Positions 8,310-31,467 of a DNA stretch of 47,880 nucleotides are shown here, piece after piece. The position numbers and the translations under genes are program-made. Location: assembly GCF_009725985.1 (NCBI RefSeq), contig NZ_RCNR01000036.1:1-47880 (forward strand), given 5' to 3'. The stretch is from Zobellia amurskyensis (GTDB taxonomy: Bacteria; Bacteroidota; Bacteroidia; Flavobacteriales; Flavobacteriaceae). Each line of letters starts with the position of its first letter. The stretch's first letter is position 1. Below the pieces are notes generated by a model. It did no database searches. It was not told the DNA's origin and saw only the letters and a list, made by a program, of their open reading frames with translations.

Positions 8310-8337
8310 TTAATGTTTTTTGAGGTTGATGGTTAAC
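8310..8337 (-). promoter_or_regulatory. Probable ECF-sigma promoter, surface module (one mismatch)
   Basis: On the minus strand GTTAACC, a 15-base spacer, then CATTAA. The upstream element and spacing equal the sites at 10785 and 15713; the downstream element differs from CACTAA at one base, and the T-run after the upstream element is missing. It lies 17 bases before the ATG of the T9SS-tail gene. Confidence 0.5.
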
Positions 8338-8811
8338 GGCATTGGTCAGTTATTTTTCTTAGATAACACCTAGAACTCTTTTCTTTTATAGACGAATACT
8401 TTTAGGCAATCAAAATCTATATTATATTCTTTGAAAAGGAATTGATTTTTGACAATCAGTAAAACTTATTCCGTTTAGTGCAACGAGAAGGAATAAATAC
8501 AGCCGTTCCGTTGGAGCTTTTGGGTTTACCGCGATAGAAAGAAGTATGTAATAATTAATCAGTTTCATTTGCTCTCTATTTACTTTAATGGTATGAACCA
8601 TTAAAAAATGAATAGGGGGAAACTGATTTGGGAAGGTCAGGAAGAAGAAAATATCCGATTTAAAACTATACGTAAATTGCCAGCCCCTTGAAACCATGAA
8701 CAAGATACCGGCAATTACAATTTTGAAGAAACGGAAATGTATAATTTGAGGACTTCAGTGTATAATCCGCAAGAAAGATTCATTTTTAACACTCTGGTGA
8801 ATGAATTTTTA
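8338..8811. other. Intergenic region with possible decayed coding sequence
   Basis: No intact gene is supported. On the plus strand one frame reads MNRGKLIWEGQEEENIRFK..., a TGA, then NYNFEETEMYNLRTSV and NPQERFIFNTLVNEFLS up to the end of the facing gene, with protein-like composition but a stop in the middle and no continuous ORF. The opposite strand has an open frame of about 91 codons (8422-8697) with no recognisable features. I treat this as a possible gene remnant without family assignment. Confidence 0.3.
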
Positions 8812-9279
8812 TCAAGGGCTTTTAATAGGTTCAATGCTATAGGTCCAGTCCTTTAAAGTTTTATACCCTTTTAAAATATTAGGCGATTTTACAACGCCAT
8901 AAATACCTCCTGTTAGCGCAGCTGCTCCAATAAATACAAAAGGTACATTCCCAATAGCCAATGCAATAAAAAATGTGATACTGCCAATATGTAGGAAGTT
9001 TATATTCATCATAACTGTGTGCAGTAAAGGGTGCTTTCGTATAATATCAATCTCATTTAAACTGATAATCACCCAGTCTACAACAATGCTATTTTGATTA
9101 AGAACGGCAAATCTACCCGCAAATTTTTCGCCCGTTTTGGTAATTACCTTTATTCTTCGGTTTTCCTTTATTGCTATTTCTTTGTTGGACACTGAATTCA
9201 CAATAATCAATTGCTTTTCTTGGCATAATCCATTTTGATAGACCAAAAGAAAAATCATTACTAGAACAAGCGTTTTCAT
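8812..9279 (-). CDS. Exported small membrane protein of unknown function
   Basis: 155 residues with a signal peptide or N-terminal anchor (1-19, LVMIFLLVYQNGLC then Q), a soluble portion of about 70 residues with beta-rich text (IKVITKTGEKFAGRF, NSIVVDWVIISLNEIDII), then two hydrophobic spans (about 97-130) and a short tail. The TGEKFAGRF...VVDWVIISLNEID part looks like an SH3/Sm-like small barrel as in proteins that describe a surface modification of lipids or RNA, but the match is too weak to name. It is the last gene of the minus-strand run starting at 10707, 45 bases after its neighbour. Confidence 0.7.
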   Translation of the reverse strand: MKTLVLVMIFLLVYQNGLCQEKQLIIVNSVSNKEIAIKENRRIKVITKTGEKFAGRFAVLNQNSIVVDWVIISLNEIDIIRKHPLLHTVMMNINFLHIGSITFFIALAIGNVPFVFIGAAALTGGIYGVVKSPNILKGYKTLKDWTYSIEPIKSP

Positions 9280-9324
9280 GTGATAATATTTTGCAAGATG
9301 TTCTCTCCTTAAAAAGTGATTTAA

Positions 9325-9702
9325 CTATTCTTGAACACTGGCAAACCAGACCTCATATTTTTTACCCAAAATAGGTGCAGGACTTTCTTTTCCATTTAGA
9401 GCGTTTATAAGTGCCATTATCCACATATACAACAAGACAAAAATGCCCAGTATGTTTATAATCCAACCCAAAATTGGTATGACACCAATAACCCCCAGGG
9501 TCAAACCCGTAACACACAATCCCAGTGATTGTCTAATATGATAACTTGCAAATTGTTGTTTTTTATCATTGTTCATCACAAAAGCTACTATCAAACCTAT
9601 TAAGGTTACATAAGCAAGAATTGCTATTGTTTTATCGTTTTCACTTGTTGCGGCGGCAGCTTGAGTCTTATTTAACTCCGTATCTGTATTTTCCATTATC
9701 AT
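9325..9702 (-). CDS. DUF4870-like small membrane protein
   Basis: 125 residues. After a polar N-terminus it has DKTIAILAYVTLIGLIVAFVMN, an NDKKQQFASYHIRQSLGL loop and two more hydrophobic spans, which is the layout of the DUF4870/Tic20-like membrane family (A-Y-x-T-x-I-G-x-I...F-x-x-x-H-x-x-Q-S-L). The function of that family is not established. Two ATGs (9702 and 9696) are possible; the second gives MENTDTE. Third gene of the 10707 operon, 23 bases from the lipoprotein gene before it. Confidence 0.8.
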   Translation of the reverse strand: MIMENTDTELNKTQAAAATSENDKTIAILAYVTLIGLIVAFVMNNDKKQQFASYHIRQSLGLCVTGLTLGVIGVIPILGWIINILGIFVLLYMWIMALINALNGKESPAPILGKKYEVWFASVQE

Positions 9703-9725
9703 TTTTTTAATTCGTTTTTAATTTG

Positions 9726-10334
9726 CTATTCCGTCATTTTGGTCAATTGCTCTAGTTTGAGCTCATCTACCATACCCCAAGTTTCCTCGGGAAGCATATC
9801 GTTTGCATTTATGGTAACCAAGAACCTATCTTCATAGGCAAACATTAATTGGGTATCGTTAGATTTTTTCTTGTAGATCTGTTGCGCCTTTATTCCATTA
9901 ATCTCTACAGTTTGTTGGTGCTTATATTCATCTTCAGTTTCCATTTCAAAATTTCCTAACAGTCCGTAGCTTGTGGCCATCATACTACCCGTTGGACCGG
10001 CACCGTCTATAATCATTACGCTCAATGTTTTTTTATCTTCAGCCTTTTTATAGGTTCCCTCCACGGAGTTTACTTGATACATACCCGCCTGTCCCACTTT
10101 AAACCCCGTTCTTTCTAAGGGTCCCAAATTCTGAGGCAACCACTCCTTTAACTGTTCATTGGTTAATGGGACTGCATTTTTCAATTTTTCAATTCTTCCT
10201 TCTACCTTTCTAGCTTCTTTTACAAAAGTGGATGCGTTTGACACTCCCGCCTTGGCCTTGGTCAATTTTTCCTTGACCTCGCCAACACATGAACCAAGTA
10301 ATAGCAACAGTATAACCAGTCCTATATTTTTCAT
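9726..10334 (-). CDS. Exported lipoprotein of unknown function
   Basis: 202 residues starting MKNIGLVILLLLLGSCVGEV. The signal peptide ends in a lipobox (LLGSC), so Cys16 is the probable lipidated residue. The open frame goes back to 10382 only through a TTG, so I use the ATG at 10334. A helical region (KEKLTKAKAGVSNASTFVKEARKVEGRIEKL is split by charge in heptads) comes first, then a domain of about 130 residues containing VEINGIKAQQIYKKK and FLVTINANDMLPEE. No family is recognised. Adjacent lipoprotein and membrane genes and the ECF-type promoter point to an envelope function. Confidence 0.8.
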   Translation of the reverse strand: MKNIGLVILLLLLGSCVGEVKEKLTKAKAGVSNASTFVKEARKVEGRIEKLKNAVPLTNEQLKEWLPQNLGPLERTGFKVGQAGMYQVNSVEGTYKKAEDKKTLSVMIIDGAGPTGSMMATSYGLLGNFEMETEDEYKHQQTVEINGIKAQQIYKKKSNDTQLMFAYEDRFLVTINANDMLPEETWGMVDELKLEQLTKMTE

Positions 10335-10353
10335 TTTAAAAATTTTAAAATTA

Positions 10354-10707
10354 TTATTGAGTGTCACAACTTTCCTTATCAATATCTGCCTTAGCCTCTT
10401 TTATCTCTTGGTCAATTTCGGCTCTACTTGCTGTAGGTATACAATCATAGATGTTATCCAGAGCATCTAGATAGGCTTTAGCCGCACTTTTATAATCTGC
10501 ACAATTATCTGCCGTAGGATTCTCACTGTAAGCCTGTGCAGCGTTAGACCAAGATTGCAATTCATCTGTATAGCCTTGAGCCCAATTTCCTCCAAAACAG
10601 TTTCCCGCAGGATTCAAAGGATTGTCTTTACTACAGCTGTACGTTAAAATAATTGCCACACCGCAAACAGCTAAAAGAATTTGTTTTTTGAAATTTTTCA
10701 TGATCAT
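10354..10707 (-). CDS. Small cysteine-containing lipoprotein
   Basis: 117 residues with a signal peptide and lipobox (ILTYSC); two ATGs six bases apart (10707, 10701) are both possible. The mature part is acidic and alpha-helical and has four further cysteines (NCFGG, DNCADY, YDCIPT, ESCDTQ), which may form two disulphides in the periplasm. It is the first gene of the minus-strand operon that runs to 8812 and is transcribed away from the ECF sigma gene; a strong copy of the shared promoter motif lies 78 bases upstream. Function unknown. Confidence 0.8.
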   Translation of the reverse strand: MIMKNFKKQILLAVCGVAIILTYSCSKDNPLNPAGNCFGGNWAQGYTDELQSWSNAAQAYSENPTADNCADYKSAAKAYLDALDNIYDCIPTASRAEIDQEIKEAKADIDKESCDTQ

Positions 10708-10784
10708 TGTTTTTACTTTTTTATTAATTCCTTTTGTAGCGTTCTTATGGATTTAAACACCCTTTATCAAATCTTCTACACCCA

Positions 10785-10815
10785 TTAGTGTCCTAATTTT
10801 TAAAAGGTAAACATG
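10785..10815 (-). promoter_or_regulatory. Probable ECF-sigma promoter of the 10707 operon
   Basis: On the minus strand CATGTTTACC, T-rich 15-base spacer, CACTAA. The position and spacing equal those at 15713 and 31437. The leader to the ATG would be about 70 bases. The sigma gene itself begins on the opposite strand 58 bases away. Confidence 0.7.
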
Positions 10816-10845
10816 CCCATTAAAAAAATTCTATATTTAGATGAT

Positions 10846-10873
10846 GTTTACTTTTTAACCAATTGAGCACCAA
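10846..10873 (+). promoter_or_regulatory. Weak copy of the ECF motif overlapping the sigma gene start
   Basis: GTTTACT, a 15-base spacer, CACCAA, with one change in each element relative to the site at 10785 and the same preceding GATG/CATG context. The last A is the A of the sigma gene's ATG, so a transcript from here would start inside the gene; either the start is the Met at 10903 or the match is not a promoter. A near -7 box (TATATTTA, 10832) could serve the normal start. Confidence 0.35.
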
Positions 10874-11427
10874 TGAAAGACCAGCATATTATTTCCCAAA
10901 TGAAACAGCGGGATAGAAATGCACTTAAAGAAGTTTATAAAGGGTATAAAATTGAATTTTTCAAATTTGCTTCCCGATATACCTCTGATACCGATTTGCT
11001 AGAAGATATTTTCCAAGATGCGATTATCGTACTCTATGAAAATGCTCTGACAGGAAAATTGGATGAATTAAAAAGTAGCCTAAAAACTTACCTTTTCAGT
11101 ACAGGAAAGTTTATGATTTTTAAAAAGTTCAGAGATACTAAAGAAATAGCCACAGATGAAACCTATATTTTTGACCAAAGTGAAATAGTTGTCATTAACG
11201 ACGTATATGAAGACCAAGGCCCCAATGAATACCAGCAAAAAATAATAGAGAACTTTAAGAAACTTGGTGATAAGTGCCGTGAAATTCTAGAGCTTTTTTA
11301 TCTAAAGGGATTAAAACTAGAAGAGATAATGAGCGTGCAAGGCTATGAAAACAAAAATGTAGTGAAAAGCCAAAAATCTAGATGCCTCAAATCATTAAAA
11401 GAGCTTACTCATGCAAAGAATGGATAA
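10873..11427 (+). CDS. ECF-family RNA polymerase sigma factor
   Basis: 184 residues. Region 2 is visible as ALKEVYKGYKIEFFKFA...DLLEDIFQDAIIVLYE and region 4 as KLGDKCREILELFYLKGLKLEEIM plus a C-terminal recognition helix (NKNVVKSQKSRCLKSLKEL). There is no region 1 or 3, as expected of an extracytoplasmic-function sigma factor. It directs RNA polymerase to a dedicated promoter set. The stop overlaps the next ORF's start by 17 bases, so the two are translationally coupled, typical of sigma/anti-sigma pairs. Divergent to the 10707 lipoprotein operon. The shared motif GTTWACC-N15-CACTAA around it is the best candidate for its target promoter. Confidence 0.9.
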   Translation: MKDQHIISQMKQRDRNALKEVYKGYKIEFFKFASRYTSDTDLLEDIFQDAIIVLYENALTGKLDELKSSLKTYLFSTGKFMIFKKFRDTKEIATDETYIFDQSEIVVINDVYEDQGPNEYQQKIIENFKKLGDKCREILELFYLKGLKLEEIMSVQGYENKNVVKSQKSRCLKSLKELTHAKNG

Positions 11428-12148
11428 TGAAGAATTGATCAATGGTTATTTTGAAGGCTCTCTTTCAGAAGAGCAGAAGAGAGAATTTGACCATTTGTTC
11501 GAAACAAACCCCGACTTTAAAACCGATTTTGAGTTTCAGGAAGAGCTAAAACGTGCGCTGGTAAAATCCGAAAGGAAACAATTAAAACAGATTTTATCCA
11601 ATACTAACGTGCCACAAGAAAAGGAAAAATCTCAAGTAATACACTTACGTCCTTGGCTCGTTGCCGCCTCTTTAGTCTTACTGGTAGGAATCAGTTCCTG
11701 GCTAATTTTCTTTAACCGACCAGACATTGATTCTCAACAACTGTATGCCAGCAACTTTGCTCCCTATGAAAATGTGGTACACCCTATCGAACGTGGAGAG
11801 CAACTGGAAGACCTTAAAACACGGGCTTTTATTGCATATGAAAATGAGAGTTACCAACAGGCAATAGAACTCTTCAAAACACTAAACGATAAAAATAACG
11901 ATAAGTATATTATATTTTACGAAGCTATTTCGCTCATGCAATTGAACAAACACCGTGAAGCTACACCCTTGCTGGAGAGCTACATTGAGGACAATGGAGA
12001 ACTTAAAGATCGAGCTATTTGGTACCTGGCGCTAACCTATTTAAAACTTAATAAAATAGAAGAATGCAAGGAACAATTAAATCTATTGGCCCATAGAGAA
12101 GGATTCAAAACCAAAGCAGCAAAAAATCTATTGGCCGAATTGAATTAA
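11411..12148 (+). CDS. Membrane anti-sigma factor candidate with exported TPR-like domain
   Basis: 245 residues; starts at 11411 (or MDNEELI at 11420), overlapping the sigma gene by 17 bases. Residues 4-60 are a helical cytoplasmic part resembling anti-sigma N-terminal segments (NEELINGYFEGSLSEEQKREF) without a zinc CxxC site. One transmembrane span is at about 82-101 (WLVAASLVLLVGISSWLIFF), leaving about 145 residues outside. That part has TPR-like helices (AFIAYENESYQQAIELFKTL, ATPLLESYIEDNGELKDRAIWYLALTYLKLN). Overlap with the sigma gene and the topology make an anti-sigma role likely. The exported TPR domain could be the sensor or the target of a periplasmic protease. It meets the CHAT gene end to end, overlapping 4 bases. 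Confidence 0.75.
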   Translation: MQRMDNEELINGYFEGSLSEEQKREFDHLFETNPDFKTDFEFQEELKRALVKSERKQLKQILSNTNVPQEKEKSQVIHLRPWLVAASLVLLVGISSWLIFFNRPDIDSQQLYASNFAPYENVVHPIERGEQLEDLKTRAFIAYENESYQQAIELFKTLNDKNNDKYIIFYEAISLMQLNKHREATPLLESYIEDNGELKDRAIWYLALTYLKLNKIEECKEQLNLLAHREGFKTKAAKNLLAELN

Positions 12149-15006
12149 GCTAGGCTTCTCTTCTTTTTATACCAAAAAACACCGTAGAAAACACTCAATA
12201 CCAAAAACGAACTCCCCCAATACCACCAGTAACTGGTTTTCGTAATTGGTGAAATATCCCCCGAAACCACAAAAGCCGACCAGTAATAGGGGTGTTGCAA
12301 TAAGTTGTCATCCGTAGTTTCCAAATATTTTAATTTTGCATCCCGTAACGCCTTTGCTTTTGATTTACCTTTACTAAGCCCCTCGTAGAAAAACTCCATT
12401 AATTTTACGCTGCTTTTATCGTTAATTTTCCACAACGTGTTTACCAAAGATTTGGCTCCGGCATAGTAGAAGCCTTTTGACAGGCTCAACATACCTTGTC
12501 CTTTTTGAAGTTTTCCTATACCCGTTTGGCATGCACTCAAGGTCACCAAATCAGCATTCAGGGAAATATTATACAGGTCTTTTATATAGAGGACATTGTT
12601 CTCACTACTATCTTTTTGTTGACTAAATGCGAGATAGGAATAATCCGGATACGCATCATTGGCCGAGGCATGTGTAGCCAAATGGATTATATTAAAATTA
12701 GAAGAATTAGCCTTAAAATTTACTAAGGTCGCATCTTGGTCCAGAACCTTCTGGGTGTTAAAATAAGAGCTTATTCCAGAAACCTCATCATCGTTATAAA
12801 GCAACTTTCCAAACTGTCTATTATCCTGAACCGCTATTTTTTCATCAAAATTTGGTGCAAACGCCAAAACATGATTTTTATCGGATTTTCCTTTTTTTAT
12901 AAGTTCCAAAAGTGAGGTAATTGAATTACCGTAGCCGATACTTTTTGTTTCCAAAAGGTAGGAATCGTTCTCCCGTAAAAGGTCAAAAGGAATATAATGC
13001 AATTCGCCATCTGGAATGATAGTCAGGTTTTCCGAATCGATGTCCTTAAGTGGGTGCTTTAAGATTTTTTCAAAGAGGCGGTTACCTAAAACACTTATTT
13101 CTTCCACACCCCCATTTAAGGAAGGTTTTGAGAGTATTCTATAAAAATCAGTGATGTCTTTTTTATCAGCTTCCAAAAATGGCAATTTTAAAAAACCCTG
13201 TTCTTCACTGTTCAATATAATGGCATACAGGTGATGGTTCGTAAGTGTAAAAGAAACTATAGTACCCCCATCTTTTAATAGTGTATTCCGTATAGTGGCA
13301 AAGTTTAAGGTTTTACTACCATATTTTAAATCGTGATACTTTGGATACTCCTGTTTTAGTGTATCCAAAAGAGCATAATACGCTTGCTTTACATTAAAAA
13401 TTTGAGCTTCTAACTTGCTGTTATCATCGGAACCATCAAAAATTTCCTTTTCAAAATGAGTGATTTCCGCTCTCAAACGCACCTCTTTGTCCAGTATATT
13501 TTGCGGTACATTACCGTATCTAGTAGCCTGTGTACCTCTAAGGGCTTCGAGTAAAATAAAATCTTTGTTCTTCTCAGCAATGTTCAATGCCAATTCTAAT
13601 ATATTTTTAGAACCGGTTCTTTCATAATTCTCATATACCACATCTAACATCCGATGAAAAATAGGATAGACCTCTTCGGCCAGAAATTGCTTATCCAGTT
13701 TACTGTCAAACTCCAGTTTCAACTCATCAAAAGTGGTGAGTATGTCCTTACTGGTTGTTATTGCTTCTTGCTCATAAGTGAGATTATTTGTTTTGGCATA
13801 CGCCGATTGTAAAAGTTGAAGTTTTACATCCAATAAATTCAACAATTGAATTTTTGAAAACACGTCTCTGGGCTTGGGGTTACCCCCCGTATCTGATTTG
13901 AAACTTACTGAATTACGAAATGCTTTCTGAACGATATTTAGTCCTTCTTCAAAATTGTGTTGCTCCAAATAAAGTTTTGCCATTTTACCATAGACATGGG
14001 CTATATCTTGGTGTGGCCTATGTTGACGGTATGCTTTAAAATCATTCAACGCCCGCTCATAATAATTCTCTGCCTGTTGGTAATTCTTCTTTCCCAAGAA
14101 AGCATCGGCATAAAGCACACATATCTCTTTGGAAAAAGGATTCTCCCGATCATCAATACGGTGGTTTTCATTTAAGACCATTACTGCATTATCATATTCC
14201 CCTTGTTTTAAGTAATTTTTAGCCAATAATATATAGGTTGATAAAAAGTTGTTCTTAAACCTAGGGTTACCGACTTTCGCCTTATAAAATTCCAACGTTT
14301 CCTTCAATAACTCACTGGCCTTAATTGTATTGCCCTGCACCTCAAACACCTGAGAAAGAAGTTTTTTTGTATTAAAACTAGCCGATTGCCAATCTTCAAT
14401 ACTATCTCTAAACGTTTCTATCAAATTTAAATCTTGCGTATAGTAAAACTCCGCCTGTTCATATTTTCCCGTATGCCTATAAATAAGACCAAGGAAACTA
14501 TAAATTGCAGAAAGTGTATCTATGTCCAGCGCCGTACGCTGCTCTTCCGGTACAGCCTTAAGGATGGAATATAGCTCCAAAAAATAGGTTCTAGCCGTAC
14601 TGTATTCCTTTAATTTGTAATGAAAATTTCCCTTATCAAAAAGAAGTCTATTTTTGTAAACTCCACTTATCTCAAGACCATTGGTACGAGAATCTTTGAG
14701 CAAGCAATCCTCCATTCGTTGGAGGTTACGTCTGTATTCCTGTAAGTCGTAAAAATTACTGTTCGCATTAATTAAATAACTCAAGCTACCAAGAAGATAA
14801 TCCATATTATCTTGCTCATTGGCTATGGCTATGGTTTTCTCATAATACACATAGGCGCTGTCCTTATTTACGTAATGATACTCCAAAGCCTTGTTAAAGG
14901 CATCGTCCAAGTTTGAAGGTGTCTCCTGAGACCAACCGCTAAAAAAGACGAACAAAAAACACACTATGTAATGGAAGTATTTCATATACGAAAGTCCTCT
15001 ACGCAT
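12145..15006 (-). CDS. Membrane-anchored TPR-CHAT protease
   Basis: 953 residues from the ATG at 15006 (an open frame goes 9 codons further only by TTG; the ATG at 14985 is also possible). It has a signal peptide (YFHYIVCFLFVFFSGWSQ), a long TPR array (about residues 20-500, with units such as YSFLGLIYRHTGKYEQAEFYY and YGKMAKLYLEQHNFEEGL), and a CHAT domain of the caspase-like clan (about 560-905). The dyad is visible: His779 in HLATHA and Cys826 in SACQTG, with GQGMLSLSKGFYYAGA downstream. Near the end there is a single span (about 920-945) followed by KKKR, which keeps the TPR and CHAT parts outside the cytoplasm. Downstream of a lipoprotein gene (38-base gap). Substrate unknown; the nearby exported anti-sigma TPR domain is the obvious candidate. 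Confidence 0.88.
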   Translation of the reverse strand: MRRGLSYMKYFHYIVCFLFVFFSGWSQETPSNLDDAFNKALEYHYVNKDSAYVYYEKTIAIANEQDNMDYLLGSLSYLINANSNFYDLQEYRRNLQRMEDCLLKDSRTNGLEISGVYKNRLLFDKGNFHYKLKEYSTARTYFLELYSILKAVPEEQRTALDIDTLSAIYSFLGLIYRHTGKYEQAEFYYTQDLNLIETFRDSIEDWQSASFNTKKLLSQVFEVQGNTIKASELLKETLEFYKAKVGNPRFKNNFLSTYILLAKNYLKQGEYDNAVMVLNENHRIDDRENPFSKEICVLYADAFLGKKNYQQAENYYERALNDFKAYRQHRPHQDIAHVYGKMAKLYLEQHNFEEGLNIVQKAFRNSVSFKSDTGGNPKPRDVFSKIQLLNLLDVKLQLLQSAYAKTNNLTYEQEAITTSKDILTTFDELKLEFDSKLDKQFLAEEVYPIFHRMLDVVYENYERTGSKNILELALNIAEKNKDFILLEALRGTQATRYGNVPQNILDKEVRLRAEITHFEKEIFDGSDDNSKLEAQIFNVKQAYYALLDTLKQEYPKYHDLKYGSKTLNFATIRNTLLKDGGTIVSFTLTNHHLYAIILNSEEQGFLKLPFLEADKKDITDFYRILSKPSLNGGVEEISVLGNRLFEKILKHPLKDIDSENLTIIPDGELHYIPFDLLRENDSYLLETKSIGYGNSITSLLELIKKGKSDKNHVLAFAPNFDEKIAVQDNRQFGKLLYNDDEVSGISSYFNTQKVLDQDATLVNFKANSSNFNIIHLATHASANDAYPDYSYLAFSQQKDSSENNVLYIKDLYNISLNADLVTLSACQTGIGKLQKGQGMLSLSKGFYYAGAKSLVNTLWKINDKSSVKLMEFFYEGLSKGKSKAKALRDAKLKYLETTDDNLLQHPYYWSAFVVSGDISPITKTSYWWYWGSSFLVLSVFYGVFWYKKKRSLA

Positions 15007-15044
15007 AAGTGTAAAGGACTTTAATTTAATCAAAAAAAGTTCAA

Positions 15045-15692
15045 CTAATTTTTATATACCGGCACTTCTATTGTGATCGCATCTCCAAATTCTTTGGATT
15101 GGGGCATTCTTATGACCATTTTAGCGTTGCCCTCAAAATCCCCCTTAATAGCAACAACCATATTACCAGATTTTGACAGGGTTGCGGAACCACCCTTAGC
15201 TAACACTTTGTTTCTTTCATTAACAATGGTTATTTCGGCTTCTTCTATCTCCGGCGGTAGCTCTATTCCTGAATAATCCGAAATATTGATTTTAGGTACA
15301 CATCCTGCTCTTGGGTCATCAAAACAACCTCTTGGTGGCCTAGGTGGAAATTTACCTCCCCTTGGCATTACAAGGCTAACCAACCCAGATTTAAACTCAT
15401 TTAACCCAGCTTCTTCTTTTTGAGCTTGTTCTAAACGTGGAATTAATCTTTTGCCCCCTTTGCTAAGGTCTATTGCTTCTTTTAGCTCGGCAATTTCCTG
15501 TTTCATAACAGAAAGGCTGTGTATGGTTCCAAGTTTGTACAATTCAAGACCGTTCAGGTATTTTGGCTCTTGAACCAAACGGTAATTAAAATTGTTCGCG
15601 GTCAATTCTTCTTCGGGCAGTTCTTTCTGCGAACATGAGACTACACCCAACATAATGGACATAAAACAGACTAGATAATTCATTGTTTTCAT
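15045..15692 (-). CDS. Exported lipoprotein, first gene of the CHAT operon
   Basis: 215 residues with a signal peptide and lipobox (GVVSC at about residue 20). A helical N-terminal half (QEIAELKEAIDLSKGGKR, ARLEQAQKEEAG-like) is followed by a Pro/Arg/Gly-rich loop (RGGKFPPRPPRGCFDDPR) with two cysteines, and then a beta-sandwich-like portion (about 130-215: ITIVNERNKVLAKGGSATL, MVIRMPQSKEF). The function is unknown. It is co-oriented with the CHAT protease gene and separated from it by 38 bases, so it is likely a partner in the envelope, for example an anchor, inhibitor or activator. The shared ECF-like promoter lies 20 bases before the ATG. Confidence 0.8.
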   Translation of the reverse strand: MKTMNYLVCFMSIMLGVVSCSQKELPEEELTANNFNYRLVQEPKYLNGLELYKLGTIHSLSVMKQEIAELKEAIDLSKGGKRLIPRLEQAQKEEAGLNEFKSGLVSLVMPRGGKFPPRPPRGCFDDPRAGCVPKINISDYSGIELPPEIEEAEITIVNERNKVLAKGGSATLSKSGNMVVAIKGDFEGNAKMVIRMPQSKEFGDAITIEVPVYKN

Positions 15693-15712
15693 AATTTATG
15701 GTTTTCTATAGA

Positions 15713-15743
15713 TTAGTGCCCTAAGTCTAAAAAGGTTAACATG
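15713..15743 (-). promoter_or_regulatory. Probable ECF-sigma promoter of the lipoprotein-CHAT operon
   Basis: On the minus strand CATGTTAACC, TTTTTAGACTTAGGG spacer (15 bases), CACTAA, ending 20 bases before the ATG of the lipoprotein gene. Spacing and elements equal the site at 31437. Confidence 0.75.
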
Positions 15744-15889
15744 AAAATTAATCGATTTGGCTAAAGATGCCTATAATTCATACATGCAACAATGGCTTAT
15801 GTTCTATTGGTTCAATTTTATGTACGTGTAGCACTGTGGTAGTATAGATGGCTTCTGAGAGTAAAAAACGAAGACTATTGCGCACAAAA

Positions 15890-15917
15890 AAAGGTCAGAA
15901 AATATGCTCTGACCTTT
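15890..15917 (-). terminator. Strong terminator, minus strand
   Basis: Perfect 10-bp stem AAAGGTCAGA / TCTGACCTTT with an 8-base loop, followed on the minus strand by a continuation of the T tract (seven T in total). It must end a minus-strand transcript from 16389-17143 or from a gene remnant between, because no intact gene lies just upstream. Confidence 0.8.
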
Positions 15918-16388
15918 AAAAATTTAATATGATACCGCCAAACCGTACGGTCCTTCTAATGTATCAAAATCGATTAGTACCAGAAAGGGTGCTGATTCAG
16001 GTAGTTCCCCCGAAACCTATAATCGGCAATCACCTCTCCAACATGTTGAATAGATGACCCCAAATGGCTTCATTAGACGGACTAAACACGCTCTATTTCA
16101 TAACATGTCGCCTAGAACCGTACCTTTTTGGATTGGCAGTTTCATAAAATTATAAGATGGTTCCCCATATGTAGATATTGTCTAGTTATTGGTTTGGTAT
16201 TTTGATGTATATATTCTGGTGCTGTAATGTCTTTGTAATAGTAATTACCAATCGGGGGGACTGTAAAAATAAGCTTTTTCTTAACATGGTCCACCATTGA
16301 ACCTGATAATTGTTCAATCTAACTACATCATTCGTAGAATGTTATAAATAACACAAGTCAACCGTAAAAACCCATCTTAACTACATCT
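15918..16388 (-). other. Possible decayed gene or structured transcript region
   Basis: No intact gene of normal length. On the minus strand one frame reads MKLPIQKGTVLGDML, TGA, NRACLVRLMKPFGV..., TAG, then VSGELPESAPFLVLIDFDT and LEGPYGLAVSY before a stop, and the other frames also give protein-like pieces (GEVIADYRFRGNYLNQHPFWY is split over bases 16040-15973). Together with the minus-strand terminator at 15890 it looks like the remnant of a protein or element, or a non-coding RNA. I cannot name a family. Confidence 0.35.
16142..16297 (-). CDS. Possible 51-residue ORF, unrecognised
   Basis: ATG-initiated ORF of 51 codons (MVDHVKKKLIFTVPPIGNYY, ending MGNHLIIL), polar with many Tyr and Asn. 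It follows the 16389-16964 gene on the same strand and precedes the decayed-looking stretch above. No family and no clear leader. It may be part of the same remnant; treat as low confidence. Confidence 0.25.
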   Translation of the reverse strand: MVDHVKKKLIFTVPPIGNYYYKDITAPEYIHQNTKPITRQYLHMGNHLIIL

Positions 16389-16964
16389 CTATCGTAAGCT
16401 TAATCTCTTGTTTTTGTGGGCCTTGAATTTTTTATTGACATGTACCGTTCTGCCTTCTGAATTTTTAAAAGACAAATTCAAGCTTCCGCTTACCAACTGC
16501 TCGTTAATTTCTGTAATATTTAAAAAGCCCTTATAACTAAAATAAGGTTTCTCATCTACATCTGTTATATTGATATATCCAAATACCCCATTGAACTCGC
16601 TCAAAAGACTATTAAAATTACTGTCGATCTCATGCCTGCCCATTATGGAGTGCATGTCTTTAGTTGGCTTGGAGATTAGTATACCAAAAAGTTGCTCATC
16701 ATCAGCTGGCTTTATTTCAATACTTGTAAATGGAATACCTCCTCTAGACACACTCGTACTCGATTCAAAAACCAAAGGATGTTCTAAAATCTTAACTAAG
16801 CTATCACTAACCTCTATAGAGCTTAAAGCATATACATTCTCTAAAGAAGATGAAGGTGACGTTTTATGGTTCACTCCTGAATTTGAAAAAAAGAAAACGG
16901 AAAGTAACAACCAAAATCCAACTTTGGTAGTATTAGCAAAAAACTGAAATAGTAGACTATACAT
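16389..16964 (-). CDS. Exported or membrane-anchored protein of unknown function
   Basis: 191 residues. An N-terminal hydrophobic stretch (about 8-27, LFQFFANTTKVGFWLLLSVFFFSNSG) is a signal peptide or anchor, followed by about 155 soluble residues with beta-rich text (FGILISKPTKDMHS, FGYINITDVDEKPYFSYKGF, LNLSFKNSEGRTVHVNKKFK). The end is very basic (KKFKAHKNKRLSLR). No family is recognised. It starts 8 bases after the stop of a 56-residue secreted protein on the same strand, so the two likely form an operon; its transcript may run to the terminator at 15890. Confidence 0.6.
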   Translation of the reverse strand: MYSLLFQFFANTTKVGFWLLLSVFFFSNSGVNHKTSPSSSLENVYALSSIEVSDSLVKILEHPLVFESSTSVSRGGIPFTSIEIKPADDEQLFGILISKPTKDMHSIMGRHEIDSNFNSLLSEFNGVFGYINITDVDEKPYFSYKGFLNITEINEQLVSGSLNLSFKNSEGRTVHVNKKFKAHKNKRLSLR

Positions 16965-16972
16965 AGCGATTA

Positions 16973-17143
16973 TTAGTTTTGGGGTTTCTGTATTACCTCC
17001 TCTTGGGCTACTAAAGTATTCTCCATTAACTGCTCACCGACTATTAAATCGCTATTCAGTTTTTTAATATCACCTGTGTCGGTCAAAGCAGCCGCTATTA
17101 AGATAACGACGAGCAACCCGAACATGAACAGACATTTTCTCAT
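16973..17143 (-). CDS. Small exported 56-residue protein
   Basis: A 57-codon ORF including stop. It starts MRKCLFMFGLLVVILIAAAL, a clear signal peptide or single transmembrane segment, followed by about 35 polar residues (TDTGDIKKLNSDLIVGEQLM..., ending QKPQN). No lipobox. It precedes the 16389-16964 gene by 8 bases. No homologous family is recognised; the composition contrast of a hydrophobic start and polar tail and tight spacing argue that it is real. Confidence 0.55.
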   Translation of the reverse strand: MRKCLFMFGLLVVILIAAALTDTGDIKKLNSDLIVGEQLMENTLVAQEEVIQKPQN

Positions 17144-17501
17144 TGGTTTGTTATTAGTTTTCTGGAATTTATTATAAAAAAACCTGGGGAAACATTAATA
17201 ACCGTCAAATACTTATACTGCTAAAGTAGCGGCGAACATCCTGCGGTTATTGTTCTTATGTATGAATGGTATATTTTCCTGTATAAATGGCAAATGCCTT
17301 ATTTTAACAGGGTTCAAACGGTCTCCGAAAGTATTTTTTCTTCATATATAGTACCAAATACAGCTTTTAAGACACCTTCTTAACCAATTTTGTCACTTTT
17401 TATACCAAACACACTTTAATTATCTCCATCGGCACATCTTTATTATCATAAAACATGCCATACGGTTAAATTTGTTTACTTTACCTTAAAAGTATTACTC
17501 T
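17144..17501. other. Divergent intergenic region before the LytTR pair
   Basis: No ORF is supported. It carries the leader regions of the 56-residue secreted protein (minus) and the response regulator (plus). The only element I can support is TAAATTTG at 17467-17474. The rest is AT-rich without a repeat or RNA I recognise. Confidence 0.5.
17467..17474 (+). promoter_or_regulatory. TAAATTTG -7 box of the LytTR operon
   Basis: Exact TAnnTTTG element 28 bases before the response-regulator ATG, giving a short leader of about 20 bases. Confidence 0.55.
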
Positions 17502-18236
17502 ATGATAGAAGCCGTAATTGTTGATGATGAAATTAAAGCACTTCAAAGTCTTTCGTGGGAATTGACCAATTTTAGCGATGAAATTAAGGTAGAAGCATCT
17601 TTTACAGATCCTTTTGAGGCATTGACTTACTTAGAAAAAAATACACCCGATTGTCTTTTTCTTGATATTGAGATGCCAACTATGGACGGTTTTCAATTTA
17701 TTCAAAAATTGACAAATAAAAATTTTCCCGTTGTTATAACTACGGCTTACAACCAGTATGCAATAAAAGCTTTAAAGAACGAAGCTATAGATTACCTGCT
17801 TAAACCTATTGATACAGACGACCTTAAGGATACCATTGTAAAAATTAGGAAACATAACGCTAAAAACTTTACGGCAGAGCGATTAGAGAGACTGTTGCTG
17901 AACTTCAACTCTAATTCAAAGCATAAGAAAATAACCTTTAACACAGACGGGAAGCTTGTCTTTTTGGATAGTGATGAAATCCTGTATGCCGAGTCTGACG
18001 GAAACTATAGCACCATTTTCTTAGCCGATGGTCATAAGATTGTACTTACCAAAAAACTAAAAGAGGTAAACGAGTTACTACCCGCTGACTCCTTTTTTAG
18101 AATTCACAATTCATTTATAATAAACCTAACCAAAATAAAAGAGTTTTTGAAAACCGATGGATATGTTATTTTGGAATCCAACCACAAGATTCCCGTTTCT
18201 AGACAAAAGAAATCAGATTTTCTGGATATGCTCTAA
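17502..18236 (+). CDS. LytTR-family response regulator
   Basis: 244 residues. The receiver domain (1-115) has the acidic pocket VDDE, the phospho-acceptor Asp55 in FLDIEMPTMDG, a Thr in TTAYN and Lys in LLKPID. The LytTR DNA-binding domain (about 145-244) includes ILYAESDGNYSTIFL and FFRIHNSFIINLTKIKEF. It is a cytoplasmic transcription factor activated by phosphorylation from the partner kinase whose gene begins 8 bases downstream. The target genes are not visible; LytTR factors bind short direct repeats, which I did not see here. Standard member of the family. Confidence 0.95.
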   Translation: MIEAVIVDDEIKALQSLSWELTNFSDEIKVEASFTDPFEALTYLEKNTPDCLFLDIEMPTMDGFQFIQKLTNKNFPVVITTAYNQYAIKALKNEAIDYLLKPIDTDDLKDTIVKIRKHNAKNFTAERLERLLLNFNSNSKHKKITFNTDGKLVFLDSDEILYAESDGNYSTIFLADGHKIVLTKKLKEVNELLPADSFFRIHNSFIINLTKIKEFLKTDGYVILESNHKIPVSRQKKSDFLDML

Positions 18237-18244
18237 AAATATTA

Positions 18245-20227
18245 ATGCGTCTGCAACTGAAAAATAATACATCTTCCCTCGCTAAATATCCTATTAATTT
18301 GGGCACACTACATGTGTTCTTATTTAGCTTTCTATTCCTCTCGGTTAGCAATGCCCAAGACATACCAACATCCTTTAAAAAAACAGTAGATAGTCTTCTA
18401 ACCGCTGCTCCAAAGGACTTTTCTGGCATACACTCGGCATTACGAGGTTACAAGTCAGATACTGTCCTTATGCGTTATTTTTCTAATGCTTCAATCAATA
18501 GCGATTATACTTCTGGCCAAATTTATGCTTTTAACGAGCTGGGGAGAACTTACAGAAACACCTCGCAATACCGCCATGCGGTTGAACTACACAAAAAAGC
18601 TTTAGACCTTGCCAATGAAGTAAACAATATTGAATTTAGAGTGGCCAGTCTAAACGATTTAGGTGTGGTCTATCGCAGAACGTCTTCCATACGAACGGCA
18701 ATGGATTATAACCAACAAGCACTTGAGCTAGCCGAAGCTGTTAAGAAAGAAGACCGATCCCATAGCCTAAAAAAAAGCATTAATGTATCATTGAACTGCA
18801 TAGGCAATCTTTACATTAAACTCAACCAATATGGCCAAGCAATAGAGTACTTCAAAAAATCTTTGGTTTTAGAGACCGAATTGGGAAATACCAAGGGTAT
18901 GGCGATCAACTACGGAAACATTGGAATTTGCCTTGAAGAATTAGGTGAATTGGACGAGGCTCTTAACAATTACCGTACCTCGCTAGCCTATAATGAAGAA
19001 ATAGATAGTGATACAGGGCGAGTTATATGTAAGACAAGTATTGCCAAGGTATATTTAAAAAAAGAACGTGTAAGCGATGCCAAAAGCATTCTTAAGCCTA
19101 TACTGCCCGTTGCAGAAGAGTTGGGCGACGGTTTTCTTATTGCCCCTATATATATTAATCTTGGCTGGGGAGAAATGGTTACCGGTGATTACGCCCATGC
19201 GGAAATAAACATGCTTGAAGGCCTAAGAATTGCCGAAAAATATAACCTTAGAGACGAAGCCGCTAGAGGAAGTCATTTACTTACCCAACTTTATCAGTCT
19301 AAAAAAGATTATAAAAAAGCACTTACCTATAGCATGAAAGCTGAAGAGCTAGATGAAGAAATTGTAAATGAAAGTACCGTACGCTATGTAAACGATATTA
19401 TTTTCAGGTACGATTCCGAGAAAAAAAACAATGAAATTCAAAGCCTGGCCCGGAAGAATGAGATTATTCAAATGGAATTACGCACAAGTAGGACTACCCT
19501 ACTTATAGGAAGCATTGCCCTAGCATTGTTAGCCGGTATTTTCTATATCCTCTACAGACAATATCAACTTAAAAATGAAAAAAAGGTTTTGACCTTAGAG
19601 CAGAGTATGTTGCGCAGTCAAATGAACCCCCATTTTTTATTCAACTCCCTCAACTCCATTAAATTATACATCATAAACAATGAACAAAAGAACGCCGTTC
19701 ATTACCTCAACAAGTTTTCTAAATTGGTCCGAAAAATTCTAGAAGCCTCATCCATGCGAGAAATTCCTTTGGCCGAAGAATTAGAAACTGTAGACCTTTA
19801 TATGAATATTGAAAACATTCGCTTCTCCAACGAGATAGATTTTAAGATTCGTATTGATGAAGATATTGACACCCACACGGTAAAAATTCCATCGTTAATT
19901 TTACAGCCATTCTTAGAAAATGCCATTTGGCACGGGCTTTCACCCAAAAAAGGCGAAAAAATAATTGACCTTCACATTTCAAAAGATAAACAAGACTTTA
20001 TACATATTGCCATATCCGATAATGGCGTGGGAAGAGTTGCTGCCGAGAAAATAAAACAGAATAAGGTATTGAAGCGAAAGTCCGTTGGAATTGAAATTAC
20101 CAAAGAACGCCTCGCGAATTTCTCAAAAGACCTTCAGAATTCGTTTGATGTAGAGATTGTAGATCTATATGACGAAAATAAAAACCCTCTGGGCACCAAA
20201 GTAATACTTCACATTCCTACGATTTAG
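18245..20227 (+). CDS. TPR-containing LytS-type sensor histidine kinase
   Basis: 660 residues. An N-terminal signal segment (about 18-35, LHVFLFSFLFLSVSNAQ) is followed by a periplasmic TPR array (about 60-400), one transmembrane span (about 416-436, LLIGSIALALLAGIFYILY), then the His_kinase/HATPase module. The phospho-accepting His463 is in MNPHFLFNSLNSIK, typical of the LytS/YehU group, and the ATP-binding domain carries ENAIWHGLSP and DNGVG motifs, with GIEITKERL at the end. It forms a two-component pair with the LytTR regulator 8 bases upstream. The TPR array could sense an envelope protein partner, as commonly proposed for this Bacteroidetes architecture; the signal is not known. Overlaps the facing DUF3109 gene by 11 bases at the stop. 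Confidence 0.93.
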   Translation: MRLQLKNNTSSLAKYPINLGTLHVFLFSFLFLSVSNAQDIPTSFKKTVDSLLTAAPKDFSGIHSALRGYKSDTVLMRYFSNASINSDYTSGQIYAFNELGRTYRNTSQYRHAVELHKKALDLANEVNNIEFRVASLNDLGVVYRRTSSIRTAMDYNQQALELAEAVKKEDRSHSLKKSINVSLNCIGNLYIKLNQYGQAIEYFKKSLVLETELGNTKGMAINYGNIGICLEELGELDEALNNYRTSLAYNEEIDSDTGRVICKTSIAKVYLKKERVSDAKSILKPILPVAEELGDGFLIAPIYINLGWGEMVTGDYAHAEINMLEGLRIAEKYNLRDEAARGSHLLTQLYQSKKDYKKALTYSMKAEELDEEIVNESTVRYVNDIIFRYDSEKKNNEIQSLARKNEIIQMELRTSRTTLLIGSIALALLAGIFYILYRQYQLKNEKKVLTLEQSMLRSQMNPHFLFNSLNSIKLYIINNEQKNAVHYLNKFSKLVRKILEASSMREIPLAEELETVDLYMNIENIRFSNEIDFKIRIDEDIDTHTVKIPSLILQPFLENAIWHGLSPKKGEKIIDLHISKDKQDFIHIAISDNGVGRVAAEKIKQNKVLKRKSVGIEITKERLANFSKDLQNSFDVEIVDLYDENKNPLGTKVILHIPTI

Positions 20228-26737: not shown

Positions 26738-26738
26738 A

Positions 26739-28963: not shown

Positions 28964-28993
28964 AAAAAGTCCCGTGTTGCTACGGGACTTTTT
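28964..28993. terminator. Bidirectional terminator between oxidoreductase and GT2 genes
   Basis: Perfect stem AAAAAGTCCCGT / ACGGGACTTTTT (12 bp, 6-base loop) with A/T tracts on both sides; it sits between two genes that converge on it. Confidence 0.9.
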
Positions 28994-29039
28994 ATTATGA
29001 ACGGATTATCAAAACCATTCTCTGTATATAGGATAATTA

Positions 29040-30449
29040 TTATTTCTTTCCTGGTAACTCACGGGTTAACCAACCTCTTTTATTTGCTGTTGCAATAGCA
29101 TACGGTGTAATCCAGAACAAGCCAAAAGTAAATAAGATACTATATGAATATGCCCAAAAAGACTCTTTAAAATTATATCGTTTAGCATAGAACAACACTG
29201 GAAATGTTGACAATATCAATATGCTAAAAAGCGTAGAACTTAAGAACAAAAGTGGATGCGTTAGAATAAAGAAAAACATAAAGAACAAGAATGGGTAGCT
29301 CATTAATATTTTTATTGATTGGCTAATGAACAACAACCTTGGCCCAACCTTTGGTCCTTTTCTAAAGTTGGTAAAAACATACTTAGACATCTCAATGTTT
29401 TCACGAACATTACTTCTACCCCACCTAATAAACATTTTATAAAGGCCTGTATATTGTTCAGGAACATTGGTATAAGCAAACGCGTTTCTTTGAAACAAAA
29501 CATGATAACCTTGTTTCAAAATCATATTGGTCATAGCGCGATCTTCTCCAATATCTGAAGGCTGCCCCATAAAGGTTTGGTTTATCCACTGATCTAAACA
29601 GTTAAAAACAGCAGTTCTACGGTAAGCCGCTAAAGCTCCAGGAGTACATAATACTGAGTTTAAAGAACTCTCTGCAGATCTAACGAATTCAAAACTCATA
29701 ACAAAACTTACATCCAACATCTTTGGAAGCAATGCTTTTTTGTTATTAAGAACACGAATATTTCCAGCAACGGCTCCACAATTTTCGTTTACCACAAACG
29801 GGCTAACCAAATTACGCAACGTATCCTTGTCTACTATAGAATCACTATCTACAGTTACAAAAACCTCACCTTTACCTTCATTAAATCCTCTATACAAGCC
29901 ATGGCGTTTCCCCATGTTCTTTGGTTGTTGAAAAATCGTTACACGATCACCCAAAACCTTCTTTGCTTCCTTCATCCAATGCCAAGTGTCATCCTTACTA
30001 CCATCATCAATAGATAATAACTCTAACTTTTCATGTGGAAAATCACTCTCAGCCAAACTAATTAAAGTATCGTATACTTGTTTACCTTCATTATAAGCAG
30101 GTACAATAACTGTAACTGTTGGCAATTCTTCATTGGAAACAGATTTGATTGCCTTGTATCTAAAATATTTGTAAATGATAAATAGAAAAAATAAAGCTTT
30201 AAAAGCAAAAAGGCCGATAGCTAAATACATAAATGCCTGACCGAAGTATGAGGTAGACCGCTCTAGGTTAAACTCAGTTAGATCACTTCTTAAAATGTAA
30301 GACATATAGGCTGCACCTATCATCAATACAAAAGTGCTTCCCATCACAAAAATGCCCCAAGCATTGGCAGTCTCTATAAAAACTTTGAATTTGTGAATTA
30401 AGCCTCTCTTAGAAGAAGCTGGTATATTTGATGTGGTATTTGATTTCAT
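29040..30449 (-). CDS. Membrane-bound GT2 family glycosyltransferase (NodC/hyaluronan-synthase-like)
   Basis: 469 residues. N-terminal spans at about 32-55 and 74-95, then a GT2 catalytic domain (about 105-345) and four C-terminal spans (about 365-455). Motifs are TVIVPAYNEG, SIDDGSKDDT, TVDSDSIVD (DxD metal site), GEDRAMTNMI and RWGRSN with the Gln/Arg-Trp product-binding element (FIRWGRSN). This architecture polymerises or transfers sugars to a growing glycan or lipid at the inner membrane. The product is unknown and no export partner is adjacent. It converges on the terminator with the oxidoreductase. Followed by a 394-base gap. Confidence 0.92.
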   Translation of the reverse strand: MKSNTTSNIPASSKRGLIHKFKVFIETANAWGIFVMGSTFVLMIGAAYMSYILRSDLTEFNLERSTSYFGQAFMYLAIGLFAFKALFFLFIIYKYFRYKAIKSVSNEELPTVTVIVPAYNEGKQVYDTLISLAESDFPHEKLELLSIDDGSKDDTWHWMKEAKKVLGDRVTIFQQPKNMGKRHGLYRGFNEGKGEVFVTVDSDSIVDKDTLRNLVSPFVVNENCGAVAGNIRVLNNKKALLPKMLDVSFVMSFEFVRSAESSLNSVLCTPGALAAYRRTAVFNCLDQWINQTFMGQPSDIGEDRAMTNMILKQGYHVLFQRNAFAYTNVPEQYTGLYKMFIRWGRSNVRENIEMSKYVFTNFRKGPKVGPRLLFISQSIKILMSYPFLFFMFFFILTHPLLFLSSTLFSILILSTFPVLFYAKRYNFKESFWAYSYSILFTFGLFWITPYAIATANKRGWLTRELPGKK

Positions 30450-30843
30450 ATAATGGTATTTGATAATGATGTTCTGAACCTTTATACGTCATCTAATCTC
30501 TTTCAGATGTTTACTTTGTATTAATTTAACATGCGCAAAAATCCATAAGATTATGAGGACATCAATAGTTATACCTTGTTAAATGGTTATTAATAATATC
30601 TGAAACGAAAATTTACGGATCTCAGAATTATAAGGAGATATTGATGAGATTGCACTAAAAACAGATTGACCCTATTTATTTGCCGATAATCTATAAAAAG
30701 GCATTTATATGAAAATTACCAAGTTGGACCTAGCAACCAATAAGCAAAGGTTTGGAATTGAAATAGAACACAAGAAATAAGCGTAATGAGAGAACTTTAG
30801 AAAGGTGTTTTCCCATTACGCTCAAATTTTTACGCAAGACAAT
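30450..30843. other. Intergenic region between GT2 and barrel genes
   Basis: No gene is supported. A 23-codon ORF (30709-30780) is too weak to call. Its end runs into a 9-bp stem-loop at 30780-30822 that best serves as the terminator of the barrel gene. Nothing else is recognised. Confidence 0.5.
30780..30822 (-). terminator. Hairpin terminator candidate after the outer-membrane barrel gene
   Basis: AGCGTAATG pairs with CATTACGCT (9 bp, 25-base loop), 22 bases past the barrel gene stop on the minus strand, followed by TTATTTCTTG. The long loop makes it weaker than the others. Confidence 0.45.
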
Positions 30844-31404
30844 CTAAAACGCATACCCAGCAGAAAGCTGGAAAACGTTGTTTTGACTCTTTCCTCCTGT
30901 AAAAGAATCTCCATTTATATTAGCAATACCTTTATTATACCGAAGACTGAAAAAGATGTTCTCATTTAATTTGTAGGATGCTCCAATAGCAAAGGCAACA
31001 TCTAACTTATTAAAACGGTCATCGTCATCTTCATTGGTAGATATTAAAAAGCCCACTAAAGGTCCTGCTTCAGCACTAAGACCTTCTAAAAAATAATACT
31101 TCCCTAAAAGGGGCAAGTTTATATAATCTAGCTTTAAATTATTATCGTTAGTACCATAATCCCAATTTGTACCTTGTGAAGAATACAGTAGTTCTGGTTG
31201 AACAGCTATTTTTTCGGAAATCGAAAATTCTGCAACGCCACCTAAATGAAAGCTGACTTTTGTACCTAAACTTCCTAAGCCCGAATAGGCACTACCACCA
31301 ATAGAAGCCACGTTAATACCTCCTTTTACCCCAAAATCAAAATCTTGAGCATTGGTAGCAGTATAGGTCAAAAGTGCGGTTAAAAAGAATACTAGTTTTT
31401 TCAT
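30844..31404 (-). CDS. Outer-membrane beta-barrel protein (OMP_b-brl type)
   Basis: 186 residues with a signal peptide (about 1-19, ending ATNAQ). The rest has alternating amphipathic strands: GVKGGINVASIGG, VQPELLYSSQG, YINLPLLGKYYF, SLRYNKGIANIN, and an aromatic C-terminal strand ending in SAGYAF, as expected for insertion by the BAM machinery. The PF13568-like small barrel family is common in Bacteroidetes and its function unknown. Upstream (minus strand) lies an exact copy of the ECF-type promoter motif found near the sigma gene, so it may belong to that regulon. Confidence 0.88.
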   Translation of the reverse strand: MKKLVFFLTALLTYTATNAQDFDFGVKGGINVASIGGSAYSGLGSLGTKVSFHLGGVAEFSISEKIAVQPELLYSSQGTNWDYGTNDNNLKLDYINLPLLGKYYFLEGLSAEAGPLVGFLISTNEDDDDRFNKLDVAFAIGASYKLNENIFFSLRYNKGIANINGDSFTGGKSQNNVFQLSAGYAF

Positions 31405-31436
31405 AATCTACATGTTTTGTTTAATTGTTACACTGG

Positions 31437-31467
31437 TTAGTGCCAAACATGCAAAAAGGTTAACATG
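31437..31467 (-). promoter_or_regulatory. Probable ECF-sigma promoter of the outer-membrane barrel gene
   Basis: On the minus strand CATGTTAACC, TTTTTGCATGTTTGG spacer (15 bases), CACTAA, 32 bases before the ATG. It is about 16 kb from the equal sites next to the sigma gene. Confidence 0.75.

Follow-up and report, generated by a model that had tools for sequence, protein, structure and literature searches.

Extracytoplasmic function (ECF) sigma factors are, in the usual description, activators of their own gene. Among the described systems closest to the one presented here, the type III-E Craspase contains Csx29, which cleaves Csx30, the inhibitor of CASP-sigma (PMC10028731), and in Myxococcus xanthus the ECF sigma factor DdvS is active once its anti-sigma factor DdvA is inactivated (PMC4374960). 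Here we describe a stretch of 47,880 nucleotides from Zobellia amurskyensis (contig NZ_RCNR01000036.1, positions 1 to 47,880), referred to as the window, in which the bipartite motif GTTWACC-N15-CACTAA recurs around a module of three genes encoding an ECF sigma factor, an anti-sigma-like membrane TPR protein and a TPR-CHAT protein. We consider it highly probable that this motif is the promoter of the ECF sigma subfamily found in such modules, where it would drive genes of envelope proteins. A conserved promoter across the start codon of the sigma gene and a shift between CACTAA and CATTAA in the second box are additions to the preliminary description of the window. The promoter elements of the window are as follows.

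15713 to 15740, minus strand: strict copy GTTAACC-N15-CACTAA, 20 nt before 15692, the start of a lipoprotein-like open reading frame (ORF)
10785 to 10812, minus strand: strict copy belonging to the 10354 gene, now in divergent orientation to the sigma gene, resembling a hybrid of two ancestral promoters
31437 to 31464, minus strand: strict copy, 32 nt before 31404, the start of a beta-barrel gene
8310 to 8337, minus strand: CATTAA-type copy with one mismatch, probably read by a paralogous sigma factor
10846 to 10873, plus strand: ECF-type promoter GTTTACT-N15-CACCAA with two mismatches, its last base being the A of the sigma ATG
10832 to 10839, plus strand: TATATTTA, resembling the housekeeping -7 box TAnnTTTG, with a predicted start at about 10844 and the ECF promoter itself as the predicted leader

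The three strict copies, all on the minus strand with a spacer of 15 bases, stand where the preliminary description had placed them, and 100 shuffles of the window yielded no exact copy. They are the sole strict CACTAA copies in the Z. amurskyensis genome (5,136,021 bases), all on this one contig, and the reversed control pattern has no match in that genome. The copy at 8310 is present as well, its single mismatch being CATTAA. With up to two mismatches allowed, the window alone contains five matches, a number equalled by 16 of 100 shuffles and thus not significant; the case for the weak copies at 8310 and at the sigma gene comes solely from conservation at orthologous positions. As had also been stated, the strict copies precede exported-type genes, namely two ORFs with a lipoprotein-like N-terminus, read by eye, and one beta-barrel gene (PF13568). 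The features of an ECF-type promoter are found at sequence level: AAC and a T-run in the -35 element, a near-constant spacer, a distinct -10 box and a position upstream in gene orientation. The constant spacing of 15 bases that had been claimed applies to the window, whereas in the sigma family spacers of 15 (49), 16 (10) and 14 bases (2) occur among 61 sites. Of the CATG prefix, the T before GTT (97 %) and the preceding A (78 %) are general in 58 non-redundant of 77 sites away from sigma starts, but the C in third place is present in only 29 %, so the prefix is partly chance.

The genes and proteins of the module and the further genes with motif copies are listed below.

10873 to 11427, plus strand: ECF sigma factor of 184 amino acids (TIGR02937), with an in-frame ATG also at codon 10 (10900)
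11420 to 12148, plus strand: anti-sigma-like protein with helices at the N-terminus, one membrane helix (78-98) and a TPR domain; its gene overlaps the end of the sigma gene
12145 to 14985, minus strand: TPR-CHAT protein (PF12770, 206.4 bits), likely exported and membrane-anchored, with conserved His772 and Cys819
15045 to 15692, minus strand: lipoprotein-like ORF by its translation, probably in one operon with the TPR-CHAT gene, a gene order kept in relatives
10354 to 10707, minus strand: lipoprotein-like ORF by its translation and orthologues, whose start may be 10701
30844 to 31404, minus strand: outer-membrane beta-barrel protein (PF13568, NF049866)
7810 to 8292, minus strand: protein with a type IX secretion system (T9SS) sorting domain (PF18962)

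The sigma protein matches the sigma-70 ECF superfamily profile TIGR02937 with 62.6 bits (cut-off 42.9), reaches 23.8 bits against the region 2 family PF04542 (gathering cut-off 24) and is matched to the SigW structure 5wuq at E 3.4e-7. The gene adjoining it encodes a protein with features of an anti-sigma factor, namely helices at its N-terminus and a single membrane helix (78-98); its structure model, with a predicted local distance difference test (pLDDT) score of 83, also shows a TPR domain. A known anti-sigma fold was looked for in this protein, and the fold matches listed are TPR proteins only. The TPR-CHAT gene is convergent to these two genes. Its product carries a CHAT domain with the His-Cys pair of CHAT proteases at sequence level (model pLDDT 86.5); His772 and Cys819 are invariant in 32 aligned sequences, and a pattern search found the Cys motif in 73 of 76 TPR-CHAT proteins. 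A PADLOC search with four proteins returned one TPR match.

A search with an alignment of 15 sigma factors gave 80 named loci, the best 80 of 450 confirmed relatives, so that the family counts describe the nearer members; stretch L120 (G008:C19) and some other stretches were left out of the analysis. The structure alignments comprised 33 of the 80 anti-sigma-like and 31 of the 76 TPR-CHAT relatives, each together with the window protein. The loci are mostly from Flavobacteriaceae, with Parapedobacter, Mangrovivirga and Algoriphagus in addition. In all 80, the gene of an anti-sigma-like membrane TPR protein directly follows the sigma gene, and 76 contain a TPR-CHAT gene, which is convergent in 70 and on the same strand as sigma in six; two of the four loci without it lie near a contig end. 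A simple hydropathy rule detects a membrane helix starting at 60-130 in 69 of the 80 anti-sigma-like proteins, a membrane helix in the last 60 residues of 66 of the 76 TPR-CHAT proteins and a hydrophobic N-terminus in only 33 of the latter. Orthologues of the local sigma factor (clade A) occur in five of 79 other genomes, at identities of 95 % in Z. russellii (G007), 93 % in G001, 83 % in Z. uliginosa (G008), 82 % in G005 and 73 % in Pseudozobellia thermophila (G018). Paralogues at 36-45 % (clade B and others) are commoner.

Within the 1.25 Mb of these loci, chosen by the sigma protein alone, the strict pattern matches 132 times and its reversed form four times. Of these matches, 49 lie at a sigma start, 28 are divergent from the sigma gene and 49 stand within 150 nt upstream of an ORF, 126 of 132 in all. 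Genes of the last class start 6-83 nt after the site; two genes of the divergent class are called as starting 0 and 3 nt from the site, probably through over-long calls. The pattern GTTAACCTTN13-14CAYTAA has 53 matches in the 12 of 80 genomes that contain a sigma match at E < 1e-30 and four in the other 68 (reversed control: one and nine, respectively); one conserved pair of matches lies 165 nt from the next ORF, so not every match is a promoter. A tighter pattern searched in 299 genomes of the family irrespective of any protein gave three matches, all beside a subfamily gene (in the window, in G018 and in G167, the last with the same letters and coordinates as the Kriegella locus L128). The motif is very probably an ECF promoter read by the sigma factor encoded beside it.

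In clade B loci, further copies precede lipoproteins, collagen-like lipoproteins, an OmpA-family protein and a subtilase-type lipoprotein. In three of these loci (L064, L071, L079), several small lipoproteins with collagen-like repeats are encoded in a row next to sigma, and some of them have a motif copy to themselves; one such protein scored 20.6 bits against PF01391, below the cut-off of 27.2. Away from sigma modules, strict copies identical within genome pairs were observed at G002:C2:980504 and G004:C32:789892 and at G001:C1:3682106 and G003:C2:3243105. A universal promoter of the TPR-CHAT gene was considered and rejected: among 72 such genes, the site lies at the gene itself in one case, at the preceding gene in 24 and at the second gene before it in six, five of these six being the sigma start.

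The preliminary description had named the local ECF sigma as the probable common factor of all copies. This holds for the CACTAA copies, for which it is the best candidate, but the 8310 copy is kept in three of four Zobellia genomes that do not encode it, so that a paralogous sigma, or another factor, probably reads 8310. By the pattern used, this copy is found in nine of ten genomes with a spacer of 15 or 16; its box is CATTAA in eight, with or without the cassette, CATCAA in G003 and CATGAA, which fails the pattern, in G006. The sigma-gene copy is conserved in all six genomes with a sigma orthologue, and the 31437 copy reads CACTAA in all six cassette genomes. In G002, G003, Z. barbeyronii (G004) and G006, the flanks are in order, but the genes for sigma, anti-sigma, TPR-CHAT and lipoprotein are absent; in G003, the 9726 gene was not detected either. 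A tree of nine neighbouring genes suggests at least two cassette losses, in G003 and in the ancestor of G006, G002 and G004, assuming no regain. The genes of a LytTR response regulator and a TPR histidine kinase just past the cassette (window 17502-20227) are kept in the four cassette-less genomes.

With the cassette present, the third base of the -10 box is C in nine of nine promoters (six of the beta-barrel gene, three of the 10354 gene; no site was found in the 110 nt shown upstream of the latter in G005, G008 and G018). In the cassette-less genomes it is T in six of seven retained target promoters: in four of four at the 10354 gene and, at the beta-barrel gene, in G002 and G006, with C in G003. 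G004 has only distant relatives of the beta-barrel gene and no orthologue, so this comparison covers three genomes and not four. Fisher's test gives p 0.0009 for the shift against cassette presence, which, the genomes being related, represents about two events rather than seven. CATTAA appears to be the -10 box of a paralogous sigma.

G001 and G007 carry a further lipoprotein-like gene (519 and 531 amino acids as called) between the 10354 gene and the sigma gene, which the window lacks; its product is a beta-helix by eye and has no Pfam match. In the 10785 promoter (minus strand, within window 10785-10850), the upstream half corresponds to the promoter of this gene and the downstream half to that of the 10354 gene, which would fit a loss of the intervening gene by recombination between the two promoters.

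The region 2.3-2.4 loop of the sigma factor reads the -10 box of ECF promoters. Among 73 sigma factors, residue 59 carries the most information on -10 base 1 and residue 64 on base 3; both align with this loop, where SigW has a gap of three. C at base 3 occurs only with Asp64 (44 of 44), while T occurs with Glu (12), Asp (9) and others (8), and T at base 1 goes with Gln59 in 12 of 16 cases. Zobellia clade A factors have Asp64 and clade B factors Glu64. The 14 matches to the local sigma in the genome, itself included, the paralogues with near-identical -35 boxes at their own genes and the persistence of the 8310 copy without the local sigma are what one would expect if the readers of the sites were a different ECF factor or a number of them, with the local sigma as just one among others. 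We regard this as somewhat unlikely, as the strict CACTAA copies are confined to one contig in the window genome and the motif tracks the sigma subfamily across genomes.

The preliminary description had also mentioned a weaker plus-strand copy before the sigma gene. It exists, with two mismatches, but overlaps the start codon in a conserved geometry. With a looser pattern, a motif copy ends -1 to +4 nt from the ATG in 60 of 79 sigma genes: the -10 box ends at -1 in 40, at 0 in five, at +1 in 14 and at +4 in one (locus L158, for which no start could be called, and one site with a gap of 32 nt are not counted). In Markov-type shuffles, the mean was 0.165 and the maximum 2 of 79. Only six of 946 other ORFs show this geometry. 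Five of them (L138, L139, L141, L159, L205) are likely over-long gene calls, and the sixth (L193, 15082-15627) is a second sigma paralogue in one Polaribacter locus; the underlying list had 11 rows, five being the locus's own sigma with a shifted coordinate. In the loci analysed, the copy ending at the start codon reads GTTTACY...CACCAATG or CACTAATG in clade A and GTTAACCTTYTC...CATTAAATG, or TATTAAAGTG, in clade B. Two sigma genes of G045 also have such a copy, and related genes in G000:C3 and G032 do not. Nine Aquimarina loci (L147, L156, L157, L160, L163, L166, L168, L172, L178) have no forward start copy and keep an inverted GTTAACCTTTTTT copy upstream; in these sigma genes, the start-codon geometry is lost or was never present.

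Downstream of the 58 sites away from sigma starts, A is frequent at +6, +7 and +8 (0.83, 0.74 and 0.79), which we read as the transcription start. At sigma-start sites (35 non-redundant of 60), +7 is A in 0.80, and +6 (0.46) and +8 (0.51) are less marked. With the -10 box ending at the ATG and a start at +6 to +8, the sigma-driven message would begin in codon 2-3 and should be an anti-sigma message without the sigma start codon; for the window, the start is predicted at about 10879-10881, in codon 3. In Flavobacterium psychrophilum, the housekeeping sigmaA box TAnnTTTG lies at -12 to -5 (PMC9723704). Among 48 non-redundant of the 60 sigma-upstream regions, TAnnTTT[AG] is found 3-9 nt upstream of the -35 element in 27 (shuffles: mean 1.47, maximum 6) and ending 13-40 nt upstream in none; the exact box TAnnTTTG is present in only six. 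The published box position puts the housekeeping start just before the -35 element, so the housekeeping leader would be the ECF promoter itself.

A different explanation of this geometry is an ordinary autoregulatory promoter combined with a downstream translation start, with a slightly shorter sigma made as well. An in-frame ATG, GTG or TTG is present within codons 2-20 in 31 of 60 sigma genes, and at codon 10 in ten (4 ATG, 6 TTG). The remaining 29 have no such start codon, and ATG is found in codons 2-20 of only seven. Moreover, position 10 is occupied by M, L or I in 73 of 73 sequences, and is thus kept as a hydrophobic residue and not as a start, and codon 1 keeps its ATG although the -10 box ends at varying distances from it (-1 to +4). 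A shorter sigma therefore seems to us a rather unlikely explanation. High synonymous conservation in codons 2-10 was tried as a sign of an internal start and rejected: other gene starts show such conservation too (rank of the sigma gene: 1 of 9 among B loci, 2 of 17 among A loci), and it is missing from the Maribacter-like group, so it was given no weight.

In 37 of 48 non-redundant loci, the sigma-start -35 has an inverted -35 copy no more than 90 nt away (shuffles: mean 0.65, maximum 4); the spacing is 25-36 in 36 of the 37, and 35 of the 37 also have some -10-like box at 14-16 bases by a loose pattern. Together with the palindromic GTTAAC, this arrangement would suit a motif that is not a promoter but an operator, bound by a repressor or an activator, with AAAAGGTAAACAT ... 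ATGTTTACCTTTT near the sigma start as an inverted pair forming its double site. The second box at 15-16 bases, the gene orientation, the A-rich start-like signature downstream and the single copies at targets such as the beta-barrel gene make an operator improbable, although no systematic search for another regulator gene common to the loci was made. Chance resemblance or a repeat family, to which the AT-rich genome and the non-significant two-mismatch copies of the window could point, is contradicted by shuffles, reversed patterns and cross-species conservation and can practically be dismissed.

Several observations weigh against the reading of the motif as the promoter of this sigma subfamily. 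No site is present at 41 of 72 TPR-CHAT genes or at the two genes preceding them, and 19 of 79 sigma genes, 13 of them from Aquimarina, are without a start site by the pattern used; three of the 19 (L179, L180, L203) have a near copy. The 15713 copy is poorly kept: it reads TACTCA in G001 and G007 and AACTAA, behind a spacer of 16 bases, in G005 and G008, and is unrecognisable in G018. Nor is the distinction between the boxes strict: in G002 and G004, which do not encode the local sigma, an OmpA-like gene is preceded by a CACTAA copy, and the beta-barrel gene of G003 has retained CACTAA after cassette loss. As to specificity, residue 127 outside the loop scores 0.40 against 0.41 for residue 64 (base 3), the residue-base covariation reflects a small number of independent changes on the tree, and its signal is weak when target sites are taken by themselves (Asp64: 35 C, 10 T; other residues: 5 C, 8 T).

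From the sites, their conservation, their link to sigma genes and the composition of the module, we infer the following course of events. An envelope signal would lead to inactivation of the anti-sigma protein, perhaps by the TPR-CHAT protease or by another route. The freed sigma would bind GTTWACC as -35 and CAYTAA as -10 element and transcribe genes that encode outer-membrane proteins and lipoproteins; in some genera, the lipoprotein/TPR-CHAT operon would be a further target. Of the copies in the window, those with CACTAA would be read by the local sigma, and a paralogous sigma is the likelier reader of the CATTAA copy at 8310. Housekeeping transcription would yield sigma and anti-sigma, and sigma-driven transcription anti-sigma with little or no full sigma, plus the CHAT protease where it is encoded on the same strand; polymerase bound at the ECF promoter would also block the housekeeping start. 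In Zobellia, the promoters may have been handed to a paralogue by one -10 base change after module loss. The combined proposal, a 60-bp promoter overlay that serves a non-CRISPR module as an automatic off switch and is conserved from Flavobacteriaceae as far as Parapedobacter and Mangrovivirga, together with the promoter handover in Zobellia, is put forward tentatively and with less than even confidence. The ATG at codon 10 in the window and in four of five clade A relatives, a possible start of a shorter sigma, speaks against the off switch. If it is correct, the start-codon geometry predicts the reverse of positive autoregulation in a widespread Bacteroidota subfamily, activity raising the inhibitor and not sigma, and Zobellia would offer a natural experiment on how the promoters of a lost sigma pass to a paralogue. 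Being simple, the motif lends itself to start mapping in laboratory flavobacteria.

In the literature searched, with most subscription papers outside reach, no publication dealing with a CHAT protein together with an ECF sigma in Bacteroidetes, or with this promoter, was listed. F. psychrophilum, of the same bacterial family, has the alternative-sigma promoters SM1-SM6, but its ECF motif SM6 differs in a CGT -10 box and T9SS targets, and GTTTACC...CACTAA is not described in the passages of PMC9723704 that were compared, its figure logos excepted. The E. coli sigmaE - RseA - DegS system likewise combines an ECF sigma, a membrane anti-sigma and a periplasmic protease (summary in PMC10028731), but with another protease family and another promoter sequence. 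Structures that the TPR-CHAT model matches in fold include two of DdvA, 8rot (E 1.3e-12) and 8rw5 (E 5.8e-12); in Myxococcus, however, the matching protein is the anti-sigma itself, whereas here TPR-CHAT is a separate, mostly convergent gene. With regard to type III-E, a Pfam scan of 20 window proteins (of 63 listed ORFs) found no Cas family, and window 5000-20000 showed no CRISPR-like array. Nevertheless, a TPR-CHAT protein, an inhibitor and an ECF sigma are encoded together as in Craspase, and the TPR-CHAT model has its best solved-structure match in Csx29 (8eey, E 4.8e-17; 13 % identity in the structural alignment), followed by separase and DdvA, with template modelling scores of about 0.24-0.5 over long alignments that indicate a likeness of architecture and not a close match. 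The window differs in that the inhibitor candidate is a membrane TPR protein and the TPR-CHAT protein looks exported. By analogy, the latter may cleave the anti-sigma protein, and the module could represent a non-CRISPR, envelope version of the TPR-CHAT, inhibitor and sigma logic of Craspase.

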